The translations under genes and the position numbers were made by a program. Source: Oscillatoriales cyanobacterium RM2_1_1 (GTDB lineage Bacteria > Cyanobacteriota > Cyanobacteriia > Cyanobacteriales > Microcoleaceae). From it: DNA of 40,008 nt. Below are positions 1 through 36,288 of this stretch, one piece after another. The stretch lies in NCBI GenBank assembly GCA_012033335.1, contig JAAURB010000047.1:1-40008 (forward strand). Direction: 5' to 3'. Under the pieces are notes generated by a model. It worked only from the letters and a program-made list of their open reading frames with translations. It was not told the DNA's origin and searched no databases. The first letter of the stretch is position 1. The number at the start of each line of letters is the position of its first letter.

Positions 1-70
1 GTCTACAATAAAATAATAGAAAGGTAGTTGAACCTGCAAATTCAATAAGTTTCCCATTTAATAAGTTTCT

Positions 71-675
71 ATGAATTCCCCCCAATCCATTCCTGAATCG
101 GCTGATTCCCCCAACAAATCTCAGGTTTCTTCAGGCCAGCGCTTGAGAAATTTATTGATTGCTGGGGTGGCGATCGCCTGAGTCTTGCTCTATTTTTGGG
201 GCTAAAAACTGAGGCGACTTCGACTTCCCTACCAGAATTGGCAGAGAATGCCACTCCCTTAGAAGTTGCCTTGGGAAACCAGAAGCCAACATTGATGGAG
301 TTTTATGCGAACTGGTGTACCAGTTGTCAGGCGATGGCCCCTGATATGGCAGCCCTGGAACAGCAATATGGAGAGCAATTCAACCTGGTGATGTTGAATG
401 TGGACAACAGCAAATGGTTGCCGGAGATTTTGCAGTATCGGGTAGATGGGATTCCTCACTTCGTCTTTTTGAATGCCCAGGCTGAACCCACTGCCCAAAC
501 TATTGGTGAGATTCCCCGGAGTTTGATGGCTGAAAATATAGAGGCCATGATCGCCAATCAACCGTTGCCCCATGCTCAAACCACCGGTCAAACTTCTGCC
601 TTTAATCCACCCATTAATCCTGGTGGAAACCGCTCCACCGATCCAAAGGCCCACGGAGCCCAGGTAGTTAATTAA
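71..675 (+). CDS. txlA: TxlA-like membrane-anchored thioredoxin, reading frame broken by one base
   Basis: Thioredoxin-like protein of the TxlA/HCF164 family, which carries reducing equivalents at the thylakoid or plasma membrane and supports cytochrome biogenesis. The natural start is the ATG at 71. It gives a short polar N-terminus and a hydrophobic anchor (LLIAGVAIA), then runs into TGA at 179-181 just after a HIP1 site. The rest (anchor end LSLALFLGL, then the thioredoxin fold with the active site WCTSC and the cis-proline segment GIPHFVF) is in the next frame and stops at 675. One extra base near 176-178 restores a protein of about 201 residues, the usual size. The intact downstream frame alone (from about 196) would lack the anchor. 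Family call is firm; whether the break is real or a sequence error is open. Confidence 0.85.
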
Positions 676-29544: not shown

Positions 29545-30142
29545 CGGAAGTTTCCTACGATGAATTAGTCACGGCAGCTTTATCCGGTAACCAGGTGGTC
29601 AGCTTTCCTACCGATACTGTCCCGGCTCTGGCCGTTCGACCTGACCACGCCCAGCTTTTGTTTGAGTTAAAACAACGATCAGCCGATAAGCCGCTCATCC
29701 TGATGGGGGCTACTTCAGCCGATCTCTGGCCCTTTACTCAAGGCCGTGAAACCGACTATCAAGCCTGGAAAAAATCGCAGCTCAGTATTGGCCAGGGGCT
29801 CTAACCCTGGTGTTACCGGCGACGGCCCAGGTTCCTTTGGCTATGCATCCTCATGATCCGACGACTATCGGATTGCGGGTGCCAGATTGTCAGATTGCCC
29901 GCCAGATCCTGCAACGAACTGGCCCCCTGGCAACCACCAGTGCCAACTTATCCAATCAGCCTCCCCTGACCAGTTTGTCCGCCATTGCTCGGCAATTTCC
30001 CACGGTCTTGACCCTAAGATCTGAGGGCCTAGAACCAGATCAATCGATTTCCGAGATTCCTTCCACGGTGATTAAATGGCAAGCCGATTCAGGTTGGGAA
30101 ATCTTACGTCAAGGAGGAGTCAAGCTACAATTCAAAGAATAA
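29541..30142 (+). CDS. tsaC: Threonylcarbamoyl-AMP synthase (Sua5/YciO/YrdC), frame broken by one base
   Basis: Makes threonylcarbamoyl-AMP for tRNA t6A37, normally essential. The first frame gives VSFPTDTVPALAVRPD and the binding motif LKQRSADKPLILMG. After an A6 run (29769-29774) it drifts to a stop at 29804. The second frame (to 30142) continues TLVLPATAQVPLAM, TIGLRVPDC, TTSANLSNQPP and the C-terminal STVIKW. A seventh A gives AWKKIAAQYWPGALTLVLPA and a normal protein of about 200 residues. Sequencing or assembly error is likeliest because the gene is expected to be required. The last 66 bases overlap an upstream extension of the next gene's frame. Confidence 0.92.
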
Positions 30143-30165
30143 GCAGATTATTTTTAATAAAACGA

Positions 30166-31215
30166 ATGGGTGGGAATGAATTGTTGTTTCTCGGAATTGG
30201 GTTGGGTTTAGGGTTTGGAATCAGTAATTTTTTCAGCCTCCGATCCCCATCCATTCAAAGCGCGACTTTTTCTGATCAATATCCTCAAGATTCTCAGAAT
30301 TCTCAGGATTCTCAAAATGTCAGCCAAGACCAACTTCAAGCTCTTTCCAGTCAGCTTCATCAAACTCAAATGGCTTATCAAATGGCTGTCGAAATGGGAC
30401 GTTTTAAAGAGGGCTTTCTGGCTCGGACTTCCCATGAATTGCGATCGCCCCTAAACAGCATGATTGGGATGCTTCAGCTCATTCTGACCGATCTTTGTGA
30501 AAGCCCTGAAGAGGAGCGGGAGTTTACTCAACAAGCCTATGACTCTGCGCTCAAATTTGTCGGACTTCTGGATGAAGCAGTCTATGTTGCTAAGACAGCC
30601 CATGGCATAGAACAGATGAAAATTCAGCCAATTCAGCTTAGTAAGCTATTTCAAGATGTGAAAAAATTGATCCATCTTCAAGCCGCCAATCGTAGCATTA
30701 GGCTCAGCTTTGAAGCGGTTGATCCGAATGTTTATATCCTGGCTGATTTACCTCGAATGCGTCAGGTTTTAGTGAGTTTAATTGACATTGCCCTGACCCA
30801 AATGAACGAAGGAAAAGTTCGGGTTTCTGCAAGTCCCAATCCAAACTCAAACTATGTTCATGTCTACATTGATGATCAACGCCCCCTTGATGCCTGGAGT
30901 GAATCCTCGGATTTGCTCCAGTCCACCTCAAAGTCCAGCGGTGCTCTGCAATTGTCTGGAATTCAGAGCCAGGGACAGGGGAAAATAGATGAGGAAATGG
31001 ACTTTAAGCATGATTCTAAAACCCGGCTCAAAACTCAGCTCAAAAATGACCTGACATTCTCTCCGGGAATGCGTCTGATCATGAGTCAAATCCTATTAGA
31101 AGAGATGCAGGGAAGTTTGGAAATGCTGGCACTGCCAACGGATGAAAACTCAACTGAAAACTTAACGGACTTCACCCGTACCCAATGTTCAATTCCGTTT
31201 GCGCCTGTTCCTTAA
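30166..31215 (+). CDS. Membrane-bound histidine-kinase-like protein with degenerate ATPase domain
   Basis: 349 residues from ATG 30166 (MGGNELLFLG); the longer in-frame start at 30076 lies inside tsaC. One N-terminal helix (about 4-20, LLFLGIGLGLGFGISNFF) and a Gln/Ser/Asp repeat linker (QDSQNSQDSQN) precede a HisKA domain with an H-box FLARTSHELRSPLNSM (His at about 89). The ATP-binding half is eroded: an N-box-like ADLPRMRQVLVSLIDIA lacks the Asn pair, no DxGxG is visible, and the last block FSPGMRLIMSQILLEEMQGSLEM replaces the GTGLGL box. It may be a phospho-acceptor without kinase activity, or a pseudo-kinase scaffold. Confidence 0.75.
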   Translation: MGGNELLFLGIGLGLGFGISNFFSLRSPSIQSATFSDQYPQDSQNSQDSQNVSQDQLQALSSQLHQTQMAYQMAVEMGRFKEGFLARTSHELRSPLNSMIGMLQLILTDLCESPEEEREFTQQAYDSALKFVGLLDEAVYVAKTAHGIEQMKIQPIQLSKLFQDVKKLIHLQAANRSIRLSFEAVDPNVYILADLPRMRQVLVSLIDIALTQMNEGKVRVSASPNPNSNYVHVYIDDQRPLDAWSESSDLLQSTSKSSGALQLSGIQSQGQGKIDEEMDFKHDSKTRLKTQLKNDLTFSPGMRLIMSQILLEEMQGSLEMLALPTDENSTENLTDFTRTQCSIPFAPVP

Positions 31216-31808: not shown

Positions 31809-34580
31809 GTGAAAGTGCTAGCAAATATGTCATCACTGCAATCAGAACCAGCCCAAAAAATTAATCTTTATCAGATTATTACAAAAATTCATCAATCTCT
31901 CCAGTTGGGCGATGCCCTAGCTACAACGGCTGAACAAGTCCGAGGCTTTCTGGGGATTGATCGGGTGATGATTTATCGCTTCCGGGACGATGGCAGCGGA
32001 GAAGTGATCGCGGAATCAATTTTTGCCAAGCGCTTACCGGCCCTTCAGGGGCTTTGCTTCCCCGCCGATGATATTCCTCAGGAGGCCCGGCAGATGTTTC
32101 TGGCGGTCAGACAACGGGCCATTGTCAATGTGGCTACGGGGAAGACTGGCCTGAGCCCGGCTGACTCTGCCCAAACGGGAGAACCGATTATTCCTCCACA
32201 GATCCACTATCGAACCGTTGATCCCTGTCATCTGGCTTATCTGGAGGCCATGGGAGTGAAGTCTTCCCTGGTGATGCCCCTTGTTATCGATCAGCTTGGG
32301 GCTGAAACAGACCGGTTCTGTGAAATTCCTCGAAAGTCTGCTCAATTATGGGGGCTTTTGGTGGCCCATCATAGTGAGCCCCATGAGTTTTTGCCCGAAG
32401 AACTACAACAGATGCAACTGATTGTCGATCAGGTGTCCGTGGCGATCGCCCAAGCTACTTTACTCAGTCAAACTCGTCAGCGAGCCCTGGAAGAAGCCAC
32501 CATCAACTGCATCTCTAACCTGCTCCACCAGCAGCCGACGATTCAATTCAATCAGGCTCTAGCGGCTACAGTTGAGGCTTTTGAGGGGATTGGGGGCAGG
32601 CTTTATTTGGGGGCTTCAGAGGCTCAACCCAGTCAAATTTTTACATCCGGTGAACAGCCTGTGACTTCAACCGGGGAAGTCGAAGCAATTTTAGAGGAGC
32701 ATCCCCTGTGGCAACGATGGATTCAGGATGGATTTCCTAAAGATGGCAGCAATGCCACGGTTTTTTCTTCAGTTTGGCCTGTGATCAACCTGTATCAAGA
32801 ACCGGCCCTGCGGGTGCTAACTCCGAGGTTTCAACAAACTCCGATTCGTGGCCTCCTGGTAATACCGATTTATGCCCGGCAGCAATTTCTAGGGATCTTG
32901 ACAATTTTTCGTCCTGAGATCGAGACTGAAACCCTCTGGGCCGGAAGGTTTGACCCTAGCACCAAGCAAACTTTACCCCGGCAGTCTTTTGCAGCCTGGC
33001 GAGAGCATCAACAGGGTCAGACTCAGCCCTGGATTCATCCAGATCTGTCCCTGGCTGAAGCCCTGGGTCGTCAGTTTGCCATGGCCATTGAGCAATACAA
33101 GCTTTATCAGGAGATAGCAGGATTTAACTCCCAATTAGAACAGCAGGTGAGCGATCGCACCGCCCAGCTTGAAAAATCTCTCCAGGTTACCCAGGCCCTC
33201 AATCAGGTGAATCAGCGCATCAGTCAGACCCTGGAACTGCAAACAATTTTATCGACCATTGTTCAGGAGGCCCAATCATTAATCCACAGCGATCGCGTCC
33301 TTGTCTATCGGTTGCTCAATGATCACGAAGGCGAAGTTATGATTGAAGCCCTAGGGCCAGGGATCGCGGCAACGGTTGGGATTAAAACCCCCGAGGGCTG
33401 CTTTCCCCTTACCGCCAAGCATTCCTATCGCCAAGGGGAAATTGGCATGATCGAGAACCTCCACACCCGAACCCTCTCCTCCTGTCATCGGGAGTTTTTG
33501 CAGAGTCTCCAGATCCAGGCCAATCTGGTGGTGCCGATTGTGGTGAATGATGAACTCTGGGGTCTGTTGATTGCCCATCAATGCTATCGTTCCCGGATCT
33601 GGACTGCTGAAGAGATTGACTTGTTGCAGCAATTAAGCAGTCAGGCGGCGATTGCGATCGCCCAGGCCGAGCTTTATAACCAGGCCCGGATGATGGCGAC
33701 TCGGGAACAGGCGAATGCTGCCCAGTTGACCGCTACATTAGCTGAGCTCCGCTACACTCAAATTCAGCTCATTCAGTCCGAGAAAATGTCCAGTCTGGGG
33801 CAGCTTGTGGCGGGGATTGCCCATGAAATCAATAACCCAATTACTTTTATTGCGGGGAATCTGACCCCGGCAGAAGAGTACTGTCAAGATCTTTTACAAT
33901 TGGTGGCTCTATACGACCAGCACCATCCCAAGCCCCATCCTGAAATTCAAGATTTTGCGGAGAAAATCGAACTGGGTTACCTGGCACAGGACGTTAGCAA
34001 GCTCTTCGCTTCGATGAAAACTGGAGCCCAGCGAATTCAGCAAATTGTCCAATCTTTGCGGAATTTCTCTCGCCTCGATGAAGCAGATTTGAAAATCGCG
34101 GATCTACACGAGGGATTGGACAATGCTTTACTGATTGTGCAACATCGGCTTCAGGCCAAACCTGGAACGCCAGGGATTCAGGTCTCCAAGGCTTACGGTG
34201 CCTTACCCCATGTAGAATGCTATCCCGGTTTACTCAATCAGGTCTTTCTCCATCTATTAAATAATGCAATTGATGCCCTAGAGGATGTCCAACGCCAATC
34301 TGCTGCTCCCTTCCTATTGCCCACCCTCAAACTGCGGACGAAGTTCGATCCCCAGAGTCAGTCGGTGAGTCTGACCATTGCTGACAATGGCTGTGGCATT
34401 GATCCGGAGATTCAGGGGCGGATTTTTGATCCCTTCTTCACCACTAAGCCGGTTGGTCAGGGCACTGGATTGGGACTTTCCATCAGCTATCAAATCATTG
34501 TTCAACAGCACAAAGGCACTCTAACCTGTTTTTCTGAGGTCGGTCAGGGGACAAAATTTGAGATTATGCTCCCTGTTTAG
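31809..34580 (+). CDS. Multi-GAF (phytochrome/cyanobacteriochrome-like) sensor histidine kinase
   Basis: 923 residues, soluble. GAF1 (about 20-215) is phytochrome-like: RFRDDGSGEVIAES, an Asp88-Ile89-Pro90 motif and Cys140-His141 in DPCHLAYLEAMGVKSSLV, the usual bilin site. GAF2 (about 225-425) has no such Cys. After a coiled coil (about 430-460), GAF3 (about 470-645) has Cys559-His560 in SSCHREFLQSLQIQANLVVPI plus Cys531 in EGCF, 28 residues earlier. The kinase core follows: His672 in GIAHEINNP, Asn818/Asn819 (N-box), DNGCGI, and GTGLGLSI. Start is uncertain: GTG 31809, GTG 31815 (best spacing to AAGAGG) or ATG 31827; residue numbers here use 31809. The 3' end overlaps the convergent REC-EAL gene by 17 bases. 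Confidence 0.9.
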   Translation: MKVLANMSSLQSEPAQKINLYQIITKIHQSLQLGDALATTAEQVRGFLGIDRVMIYRFRDDGSGEVIAESIFAKRLPALQGLCFPADDIPQEARQMFLAVRQRAIVNVATGKTGLSPADSAQTGEPIIPPQIHYRTVDPCHLAYLEAMGVKSSLVMPLVIDQLGAETDRFCEIPRKSAQLWGLLVAHHSEPHEFLPEELQQMQLIVDQVSVAIAQATLLSQTRQRALEEATINCISNLLHQQPTIQFNQALAATVEAFEGIGGRLYLGASEAQPSQIFTSGEQPVTSTGEVEAILEEHPLWQRWIQDGFPKDGSNATVFSSVWPVINLYQEPALRVLTPRFQQTPIRGLLVIPIYARQQFLGILTIFRPEIETETLWAGRFDPSTKQTLPRQSFAAWREHQQGQTQPWIHPDLSLAEALGRQFAMAIEQYKLYQEIAGFNSQLEQQVSDRTAQLEKSLQVTQALNQVNQRISQTLELQTILSTIVQEAQSLIHSDRVLVYRLLNDHEGEVMIEALGPGIAATVGIKTPEGCFPLTAKHSYRQGEIGMIENLHTRTLSSCHREFLQSLQIQANLVVPIVVNDELWGLLIAHQCYRSRIWTAEEIDLLQQLSSQAAIAIAQAELYNQARMMATREQANAAQLTATLAELRYTQIQLIQSEKMSSLGQLVAGIAHEINNPITFIAGNLTPAEEYCQDLLQLVALYDQHHPKPHPEIQDFAEKIELGYLAQDVSKLFASMKTGAQRIQQIVQSLRNFSRLDEADLKIADLHEGLDNALLIVQHRLQAKPGTPGIQVSKAYGALPHVECYPGLLNQVFLHLLNNAIDALEDVQRQSAAPFLLPTLKLRTKFDPQSQSVSLTIADNGCGIDPEIQGRIFDPFFTTKPVGQGTGLGLSISYQIIVQQHKGTLTCFSEVGQGTKFEIMLPV

Positions 34581-35910
34581 GATGGTTAAAGAATCCGCCA
34601 TCCCGATACTCAGTCAGAAACATTTGAAATTCTATCCAGGGAATCGGGCGACTAATTAAGTAACCCTGGGCAACATCACACTGGTGTTGCCGGAGAAACT
34701 TCAGCTCGGCGGCAGTTTCAACCCCTTCAGCAATCACTTCCAGACCCAGTTGATGGGCCATGTTGATAATAGCCTGAACAATCGCTTGATGCTTCAGGTT
34801 TTTATCCACATCCCGGACAAATGCCTGGTCAATTTTTAAGGTATTGAAGGGCAGATTTTGCAGATAACCCAGGGAAGAATAGCCCGTACCAAAATCATCA
34901 ATGGAGATATGAACCCCCAAATTGCTTAGTTCAGTACAGTTCTGGATGGCAATATCAATGTCATTGACTAAAACGCTTTCCGTCAGTTCTAACTTGACAA
35001 ATCGCAGATCAAGCTGGGCTTCCTGGGCAATTTGAATCAACCTCTGGTTCATGTCCGGGCAACTGAATTGATGCCCTGATAAATTGGCGGCAATAGTCAT
35101 GGATTCAAATCCCAAACGGTGCAACAGCAGGGTTCTCTGGCAAACTGTTTTTAATACCCACTCATCTAGCTCGTAGATCAAGCCAGTCGATTCAGCCAGG
35201 GAAATGAAGACATTGGGGGGGATCATGCCCTCCTCCGGGTGATACCAGCGCAACAAGGCTTCAGCTCCGGTAATTTCCCCGGTTTGCAGGTTGAGCTGCG
35301 GTTGATAATTGAGGTGAAATTGTTGATGGGCGATCGCCTGGCGAAGCTTGGTTTCAATGGCTGCCAGCCCTGGTGCATTGGCAGCATGGATATCAACAGA
35401 CTTGAGGATCCCAGACTTCGAGACGGGAGAATTTAGCCCTGCAGATCGGTAGGGTTGGGTTTGGGCGCTGAGCAGTTGCATCTGGCTGGTCAATCGTTCT
35501 AGGGCAGACTGTTCTACCCGATAACGGGTTAGGGCCGTTTCAATCGTAGCCCGCATGTCCTGAGGCTTGAAGGGTTTGAGTAGATATCCGTAGGGTTCAG
35601 TTTTTTTAGTGCGCTCCAGGGTGACTTCATCCCCGTAGGCGGTCATGTATACCACCGGAATTTTAAATTGATTGTGAATCTGTCCGGCAGCTTCTATCCC
35701 GTCCATGTCCCCTTGAAGCATGATGTCCATCAAGATCATGTCTGGACGAAGATTTCTCGCCGTTTGAATGGCTTCTTCTCCAGAATCCACAATTGCAGAG
35801 ACATCGTAACCGAATTTTTTCAAATTTCTGGCTACATTTTCAGCAACAATCAGTTCATCTTCAACGATCATGACTTGAGTGGTGGCTGAGGGTATTGTGG
35901 TGGTTTTCAT
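34564..35910 (-). CDS. Response regulator with EAL domain (c-di-GMP phosphodiesterase)
   Basis: 448 residues from ATG 35910 (MKTTTIPSAT), chosen because GGAG lies 6 bases before it. Longer in-frame ATGs at 35940 and 35922 exist. Receiver domain (acidic IVEDE, phospho-acceptor Asp in ILMDIML, Lys in YLLKPFKPQD), a linker of about 70 residues, then an EAL domain with the catalytic residues of active enzymes: EALLRW, NLSGHQF, the glutamate of LELTES, DDFGTGYSSLGYL, LKID, AEGVET and QGYLISRP. It should hydrolyse c-di-GMP to pGpG under phosphorylation control. The convergent GAF kinase is the obvious candidate partner. Confidence 0.93.
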   Translation of the reverse strand: MKTTTIPSATTQVMIVEDELIVAENVARNLKKFGYDVSAIVDSGEEAIQTARNLRPDMILMDIMLQGDMDGIEAAGQIHNQFKIPVVYMTAYGDEVTLERTKKTEPYGYLLKPFKPQDMRATIETALTRYRVEQSALERLTSQMQLLSAQTQPYRSAGLNSPVSKSGILKSVDIHAANAPGLAAIETKLRQAIAHQQFHLNYQPQLNLQTGEITGAEALLRWYHPEEGMIPPNVFISLAESTGLIYELDEWVLKTVCQRTLLLHRLGFESMTIAANLSGHQFSCPDMNQRLIQIAQEAQLDLRFVKLELTESVLVNDIDIAIQNCTELSNLGVHISIDDFGTGYSSLGYLQNLPFNTLKIDQAFVRDVDKNLKHQAIVQAIINMAHQLGLEVIAEGVETAAELKFLRQHQCDVAQGYLISRPIPWIEFQMFLTEYRDGGFFNHPKQGA

Positions 35911-36288
35911 GCTCTTCTCCATTGACTGAGCGGCTAGCAAGCAGTTAGAAACTTCACCAAAACTGGCGTTTGATGAACCAAGTTAGGATTGAATAAATCT
36001 TAAGCTTGTGTCTCTCGGACTGACACTCTTATTATTCCCGGTTTCAGGGGTTGGCGCTTCACCCGGTCAGATGAACGAATCAGATGATTTTTACGGTAGA
36101 TTGGAACGGGGAACTCCCTGCTCTATGCCCTTGAGTTGATGCCCTGTTTTCGGAGTACAGCATCTTTATGCGGATGGGGTGTAGTAGTTTCCGGATTTTT
36201 ATCTGAATCTATTTTATATTATTTTACTTTATCTATTTTATTCTAAAAATCCATAGATTTTACCCTATGCACTTCCTATCGTTAGATC
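35911..36288. other. Divergent intergenic region REC-EAL - trmH
   Basis: 378 bases. The trmH side is very AT-rich, with a direct repeat TCTATTTTAT at 36208-36217 and 36232-36241. No gene seen. Confidence 0.5.

Follow-up and report, generated by a model that had tools for sequence, protein, structure and literature searches.

A cyanobacterial histidine kinase that pairs a PAS-less phytochrome module with a candidate dual-cysteine cyanobacteriochrome domain lacking the DXCF aspartate

Dual-cysteine cyanobacteriochromes (CBCRs), PAS-less phytochromes and the GAF-PHY-GAF-kinase domain order are already known. In TePixJ, which gives its name to one type of DXCF CBCR, two cysteines attach at C10 and at the A-ring ethylidene of phycoviolobilin (PMC6955287). 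The downstream GAF2 of SyB-Cph1 was excluded from the crystal construct (PMC11264168). All2699 of Nostoc PCC 7120 has a knotless GAF1-PHY followed by a third GAF domain of the CBCR type (PMC6696110, PMC6121604, PMC9705869, PMC12907550). Here, we analyzed a 40,008-nucleotide stretch of Oscillatoriales cyanobacterium RM2_1_1 (contig JAAURB010000047.1, positions 1 to 40,008; hereafter the window), which encodes a sensor histidine kinase resembling All2699 in this arrangement. Its CBCR-type domain, GAF3, carries both cysteines of the DXCF sensors, with glutamate at the position of the aspartate. From the combined analysis, we consider it rather probable that GAF3 binds phycocyanobilin (PCB) via Cys559 and that Cys531 adds reversibly to C10 although the Asp is missing, giving a violet/blue dark state beside a red/far-red module.

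The reading frame of the kinase is unbroken, and Pfam assigned two GAF stretches (the best at residues 476-617; 6.5e-50 for the protein), a PHY domain, HisKA and HATPase_c, with no hit to a PAS domain at an E-value of 0.001. GAF1-PHY matched the solved structures of SyB-Cph1 (8w26, 1.2e-69), All2699g1 (6oza) and Cph2 (4bwi), and it displays all the marks of a PAS-less, or knotless, phytochrome, namely a bilin Cys-His, the DIP motif, the tongue motifs W(G/A)G and PRXSF (named in PMC6696110) and no PAS domain. By these sequence features, GAF1-PHY is a PAS-less phytochrome module of the Cph2/All2699 type. The first-pass annotation had described a three-GAF histidine kinase; the histidine kinase stands, with the H, N, G1, F and G2 boxes of the output all found, but the second "GAF" is the PHY domain (PF00360) and only GAF3 is a CBCR. 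Since GAF1 and the supposed GAF2 together make up a PAS-less phytochrome, the protein is a two-sensor hybrid rather than a chain of three equivalent GAFs.

In GAF3, the second cysteine is encoded by TGC at 33399-33401 (codon 531) and the canonical cysteine by TGT at 33483-33485 (codon 559), with Glu529 at 33393-33395. The interval 33399-33485 proposed earlier for the pair is therefore exact, spanning both codons, and the E-G-C-F and Cys-His contexts reported with it were recovered. The spacing of 28 residues, likened at that stage to Cys494 and Cys522 of TePixJ, was confirmed by phmmer, which aligned GAF3 to chain 3vv4 without a gap, placing EGCF under DPCF and SCH under ECH. When 3vv4 is numbered from Cys 494, all the TePixJ residues named in PMC6955287 appear (Asp492, His498, Trp499, Arg507, Cys522, His523, Gln526 and Asn535), which identifies this chain as TePixJ. 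Alignment with DXCF CBCRs, the check that the annotation had suggested, thus puts Cys531 on the DXCF cysteine and Cys559 on the canonical one. GAF3 shares with this subfamily the CBCR-type GAF, the Cys-His, the second Cys at -28 and the following Phe532, and departs from it in having Glu529, not Asp, at the position that lies two residues ahead of the second Cys. We therefore filed GAF3 as a variant that would work like a DXCF CBCR, and not as a strict member of the subfamily.

To place this substitution among relatives, a profile of 28 GAF3 sequences was searched in 195 genomes of the same order, giving 30 loci and 60 further places that are part of a longer match list; together with the loci gathered up to that point, these made up a set of 183 distinct GAF domains, including some phytochrome GAF1s and GAFs without a bilin cysteine. 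Directly behind a PHY tongue, 67 of 68 GAFs carried both cysteines, and only 11 of these 67 had Asp at the DXCF place, in contrast to 44 of the 53 other dual-Cys domains (Fisher p 9.8e-14, for sequences that are not independent). In a FastTree phylogeny, GAF3 fell within a 76-member clade (support 0.972 at a 77-tip node) holding 66 of the 68 PHY-adjacent domains. Across the 76 clade domains, the window's included, 160 alignment columns were ranked for conservation. The Cys531 column ranked 4 (Cys in 75/76) and the Glu529 column 145; Cys559 was invariant (76/76), and His followed it in 71/76. Conservation at this level shows that the cysteine pair did not arise by chance. The Glu had been taken as the sign of an atypical sensor; Glu529 itself was confirmed, but it is no individual oddity, as the whole clade has freed the Asp position.

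A second tree, built with IQ-TREE (LG+G4, fast search) from 184 canonical-Cys domains and 7 references and supported by the Shimodaira-Hasegawa-like approximate likelihood ratio test (SH-aLRT), recovered a 96-tip group (SH-aLRT 98.8) that excludes all 7 references. Inside this group lies a 62-tip clade with the window domain, mostly made up of phytochrome-linked GAFs, in which the second Cys is present in 61/62 and the DXCF Asp in 3/62. Parsimony reconstructed a clade root that has the Cys but not the Asp, requiring 2 changes at the Asp position and 1 at the Cys position. The outer members of the group mostly have the Asp (13/19 and 15/15), as do 44 of the 48 dual-Cys domains outside it and 38 of the 41 domains without a second Cys, one of which (L011) lies inside the clade. 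The substitutes at the Asp place include E, G, S, P, K and Q, among others, and Glu occurs in 16/62, so that the EGCF of the window is one among many. A further signature is Phe four residues after the canonical Cys, found in 92/96 group members (58/62, 19/19 and 15/15) versus 3/48 dual-Cys domains outside. Taken as sequence evidence, these patterns suggest that evolution kept the second cysteine in these relatives and let the DXCF aspartate go. The X place of the clade motif, which corresponds to Glu217 of RcaE, is often acidic; in 23/62 clade members, however, neither the Asp place nor the X place is acidic, so that a moved carboxylate is no general explanation. Another clade member without the Asp, L225 (452-625 of its open reading frame, ORF), has NSCF and Cys-Tyr for Cys-His, and its terminal branch is the second longest in the 62-tip clade.

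Because the first domain set had been gathered with GAF3 itself, which introduces a selection bias, the count was repeated from the PHY domain. A PHY-domain search found a match in 165 of the 195 genomes, and the best 96 places ranked by PHY alone were counted, weaker places being left out. The next domain was a dual-Cys CBCR GAF in 67 (Asp in 12/67, Glu in 15/67), a GAF with the canonical Cys only in 16 (15 with a red/green-type D-S/T-x-L, plus L205) and, in 7, a GAF lacking Cys at the canonical position; two of these 7, a fragment (L231) and a domain with its Cys one place later (L250), may be misread. No CBCR-like GAF followed in 5, and the contig ended in 1. The second-Cys share drops with distance, standing at 55 of the best 62 PHY places. 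After removal of ORFs with fewer than 150 aa downstream of PHY and of matches that stopped short of query residue 190, a mixed PHY set pooling all loci gave 79 dual-Cys domains in 118 unique proteins (Asp in 17/79), 18 with the canonical Cys only (17 with D-S/T-x-L, plus L205), 12 without a CBCR-like GAF and 9 without Cys at the canonical place (the L231 fragment; L250, L251 and L254 by a shift or gap). Hence the position is not always dual-Cys, and where both cysteines are present the Asp is usually absent. Two relatives, L029 and L030, with a PHY ~53% identical, have the kinase directly after PHY and GAF3 missing. For phytochromes, this lineage of Asp-free dual-Cys GAFs suggests that a GAF following a PAS-less module often serves as a second light sensor and not as a spacer.

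In the mechanism that we propose, the GAF1-PHY module would cycle between red and far-red, while GAF3 would bind PCB, or phycoviolobilin made from it, most likely through Cys559. Before illumination, in the 15Z state, a reversible second thioether would most likely link Cys531 to the bilin C10, an adduct that, by analogy with DXCF sensors, should confer violet/blue absorption; light would then flip ring D and release Cys531, leading to a 15E state absorbing at longer wavelength. In the 15E isomer, Asp492 has been described as oriented toward ring D (PMC6121604), and in two insert-Cys CBCRs every Asp variant still bound PCB, with Asp-to-Glu milder than Asp-to-Ala (PMC5240096). Together, these observations lead us to expect a GAF3 photoproduct that works, though less stably. 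Lacking the Asp, it would probably be short-lived, which would suit a sensor of light intensity. The DXCF domain AM1_6305g1 isomerises even with its second Cys replaced (cited in PMC11284453). Both sensor modules would feed the HisKA-HATPase output through one helical spine. The genome encodes heme oxygenase and PcyA, and PCB can therefore be made. The genes for PebA and PebB lie side by side, with PcyA elsewhere in the genome (L048, L050), so that phycoerythrobilin should be made besides PCB.

Several observations weigh against this mechanism. Photoconversion was reduced in every Asp variant of the two insert-Cys CBCRs (PMC5240096). The best solved sequence match to GAF3 is 6oap (5.9e-34), which has Tyr at the second-Cys place. 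The 62-tip clade has moderate support (SH-aLRT 88.7), with values below 50 at four of the nodes that separate it from the window domain. L011 (467-630 of its ORF), the same gene as L205, keeps the canonical Cys-His intact and has a shortened second-Cys stretch, with E--F for xxCF, indicating that the second Cys is not absolutely required. The pocket comparison, in which bilin-contact residues had been sought, was mixed: His523 and Asn535 of TePixJ are kept as His560 and Asn572, and five TePixJ equivalents are replaced, Asp492 by Glu, Gln526 by Phe, Arg507 by Glu, His498 by Thr and Trp499 by Ala. The early TePixJ photoproduct has been reported to move toward the side chains of Asp492 and Gln526 (PMC6955287), and as both are replaced, the ring-D side of GAF3 seems to have been rebuilt; Gln526 is itself uncommon, being Gln in 4/48 dual-Cys domains outside the 96-tip group.

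The structural model adds to both sides. An AlphaFold model of GAF3, built from an alignment of 4 sequences, had a mean predicted local distance difference test score (pLDDT) of 71.4 and matched TePixJ Pb structures with Z 18.6 (6p58) and 18.5 (4fof) at root-mean-square deviations of 2.9-3.0. Residues 7..156 matched 435..584 of 6p58 (149 of 150 aligned) and 4..160 matched 432..588 of 4fof (156 of 157), with an offset of 428 at the range ends of each; this constant offset places model residues 66 and 94 (Cys531 and Cys559) on TePixJ 494 and 522. On the opposing side, the Cys531 loop was modelled poorly (block-mean pLDDT 56-62, below 50 at residues 79-88), and the red/green Slr1393g3 (5dfx) ties with TePixJ at Z 18.6.

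The alternative that survives best, which we nevertheless regard as unlikely, is that the bilin is held at Cys559 only and GAF3 is a red/orange or red/green sensor, with Cys531 unligated and at most tuning dark reversion. Such a reading would fit the missing partner Asp, and it finds precedents both in All2699, where GAF1-PHY is followed by a CBCR GAF reported as red/orange with ~20 s reversion (PMC6121604), a further point on the opposing side, and in SPI1085g3, where a nearby non-conserved Cys alters only dark reversion, fluorescence and yield (PMC6121604). All2699g3 demonstrates that the position behind a phytochrome can hold other colours, but it is described as belonging to the red/green family, unlike the GAF3 of the window. 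Moreover, the PHY-following D-S/T-x-L GAFs without a second Cys form a separate set (15/96), and a cysteine kept in 61/62 clade members is hardly what would be expected of an unused one. A red/green (XRG) identity was rejected, as GAF3 has EGCF and the references 3w2z, 6bhn and 5dfx lie outside the 96-tip group. Likewise, a green/red identity of the RcaE type was rejected because GAF3 has Cys531 and His560 rather than a non-Cys residue and Leu, and kinship with RcaE (green/red), although it is a close solved match, was set aside since RcaE lies outside the group in both trees.

It is still less probable that the GAF3 of the window is degenerate, with no productive bilin binding, and acts as a rigid relay from the phytochrome module to the kinase. 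GAF3 has the longest terminal branch, and at the Glu544 place Arg is found in 61/76 clade domains and Glu in the window alone; both count against the proposed mechanism as well, and together they indicate that this GAF3 may be fast-evolving or partly relaxed. At Ser472, Ala488 and Ala521, the window domain departs from residues conserved in 75, 74 and 72 of the 76 clade domains, respectively, and the 5 PHY places without a CBCR-like GAF and the 7 without Cys at the canonical place, among the 96, likewise fit such a loss. Against degeneration, both cysteines, His560, Asn572 and Phe563 are retained despite the long branch, and the frame is intact. That Cys531 is a redox switch, or detects the coincidence of light and redox signals, instead of simply serving as a thiol of the photocycle, seems very improbable: the idea would draw only on what conserved free thiols can do chemically in general and, while sequence cannot tell it from an adduct, Cys531 has the position and spacing of the Cys that ligates C10.

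Table 1 Features of the kinase and the adjacent gene in the window.
Feature	Position	Strand	Basis
Sensor histidine kinase, 923 aa, GTG start (ATG too at codon 7)	31809..34580	+	
Domain order GAF1 - PHY - GAF3(CBCR) - HisKA - HATPase_c	31809..34580	+	Pfam
GAF1 DIP motif, D87-D88-I89-P90	32067..32078	+	Alignment with All2699g1
GAF1 Cys140-His141, predicted bilin cysteine of the knotless phytochrome module	32226..32231	+	Alignment with All2699g1 (6oza)
PHY domain, residues 346-428	32844..33092	+	Pfam PF00360
PHY tongue: WAG (377), PRQSF (390), WREH (397)	32937..33008	+	
GAF3, CBCR-type GAF, residues 476-617	33234..33659	+	Pfam, phmmer, structural match
E529-G530-C531-F532 at the DXCF position, Glu replacing Asp; Cys531 is the second cysteine	33393..33404	+	
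Glu544 at the TePixJ Arg507 place	33438..33440	+	76-domain clade alignment
Cys559-His560, canonical bilin-attachment cysteine (predicted) and next His	33483..33488	+	
Phe563 (canonical Cys +4), group signature; Gln526 in TePixJ	33495..33497	+	
H box HEINNP, His672 phosphoacceptor site (predicted)	33822..33839	+	HisKA
HATPase_c: N, G1, F, G2 boxes (NNAID, DNGCG, FDPFF, GTGLGL)	34230..34574	+	Pfam
REC-EAL response regulator, convergent neighbour, 3' ends overlap the kinase gene by 17 bp	34564..35940	-	

The REC-EAL response regulator beside the kinase (Table 1) is a possible partner, but the neighbourhood of related loci gave no support for the pairing: BLAST found no close REC-EAL gene in the flanks of 82 loci (L033, L034 and L109-L188), most with ~5 kb beside the kinase and not all orthologues. 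Since the two genes are convergent, their pairing remains a guess. Among these loci, an EAL gene with 29% identity lies close to a CBCR kinase (L128), an EAL domain occurs within the PHY protein itself (L155), EAL matches at 28-29% were found in L154, L166 and L159, and weak REC matches in L156, L159 and L165. Upstream of the kinase, a 379-aa ORF at 30076-31215 (+) has HisKA and no HATPase_c match in Pfam, and overlaps a short YrdC/Sua5-like ORF at 29810-30142. Elsewhere in the same genome, a protein (L056, G000:C157) carries an uninterrupted series of five dual-Cys CBCR GAFs, of which four have DPCF and one has LACF, and a CBCR-type GAF match (L052, G000:C90:44362-44847) is broken by one TGA, by a gene defect or an assembly error.

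Beyond this kinase, we tentatively propose, at a little short of even confidence, that a widespread dual-Cys lineage, mostly behind PAS-less phytochromes, forms the C10 thioether without the Asp and has a rebuilt ring-D side with Phe at Cys+4. In the open literature searched, subscription papers aside, we found no account of a dual-Cys lineage that lacks the Asp and follows PAS-less phytochromes, and the motif names EXCF, XXCF, EGCF and SXCF were not found for CBCRs; a characterised member of the lineage may already have been published. The Asp names the DXCF subfamily and is nearly universal in the other CBCR domains sampled, with or without a second Cys. If the proposal holds, the "D" of DXCF would be separable from second-Cys chemistry, and a natural lineage that kept the Cys and dropped the Asp would allow the role of the carboxylate to be tested in wild-type proteins rather than in weakened mutants. 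Each kinase would report, within a single polypeptide, both the balance of red and far-red light and the intensity of violet/blue light, offering two-colour light-controlled kinases for optogenetics.

Set against the known systems, the kinase of the window has the same GAF-PHY-GAF2-HK order as SyB-Cph1 (PMC11264168), with the DIP, Cys-His and tongue motifs in common. All2699 is not supported as a direct orthologue: red/orange photochemistry has been reported for All2699g3, and the identity of All2699g1 to GAF1 is 49.5-63% among the 20 matches listed. Compared by description only, All2699g3 is of the red/green family or red/orange, whereas the GAF3 of the window is dual-Cys. RcaE (7ckv), which with 8k9o provides the second and third solved matches to GAF3, is likewise a CBCR GAF without Asp at the DXCF position, but it has V where the second Cys would be, and its canonical Cys is followed by L. 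With DXCF CBCRs of the TePixJ type, GAF3 shares the GAF fold, the canonical Cys-His and, 28 residues before it, a second Cys with Phe as the next residue, and it differs from them at the Asp at -2, which is Glu in GAF3 and variable in its clade, and at the places of Gln526, Arg507, His498 and Trp499.

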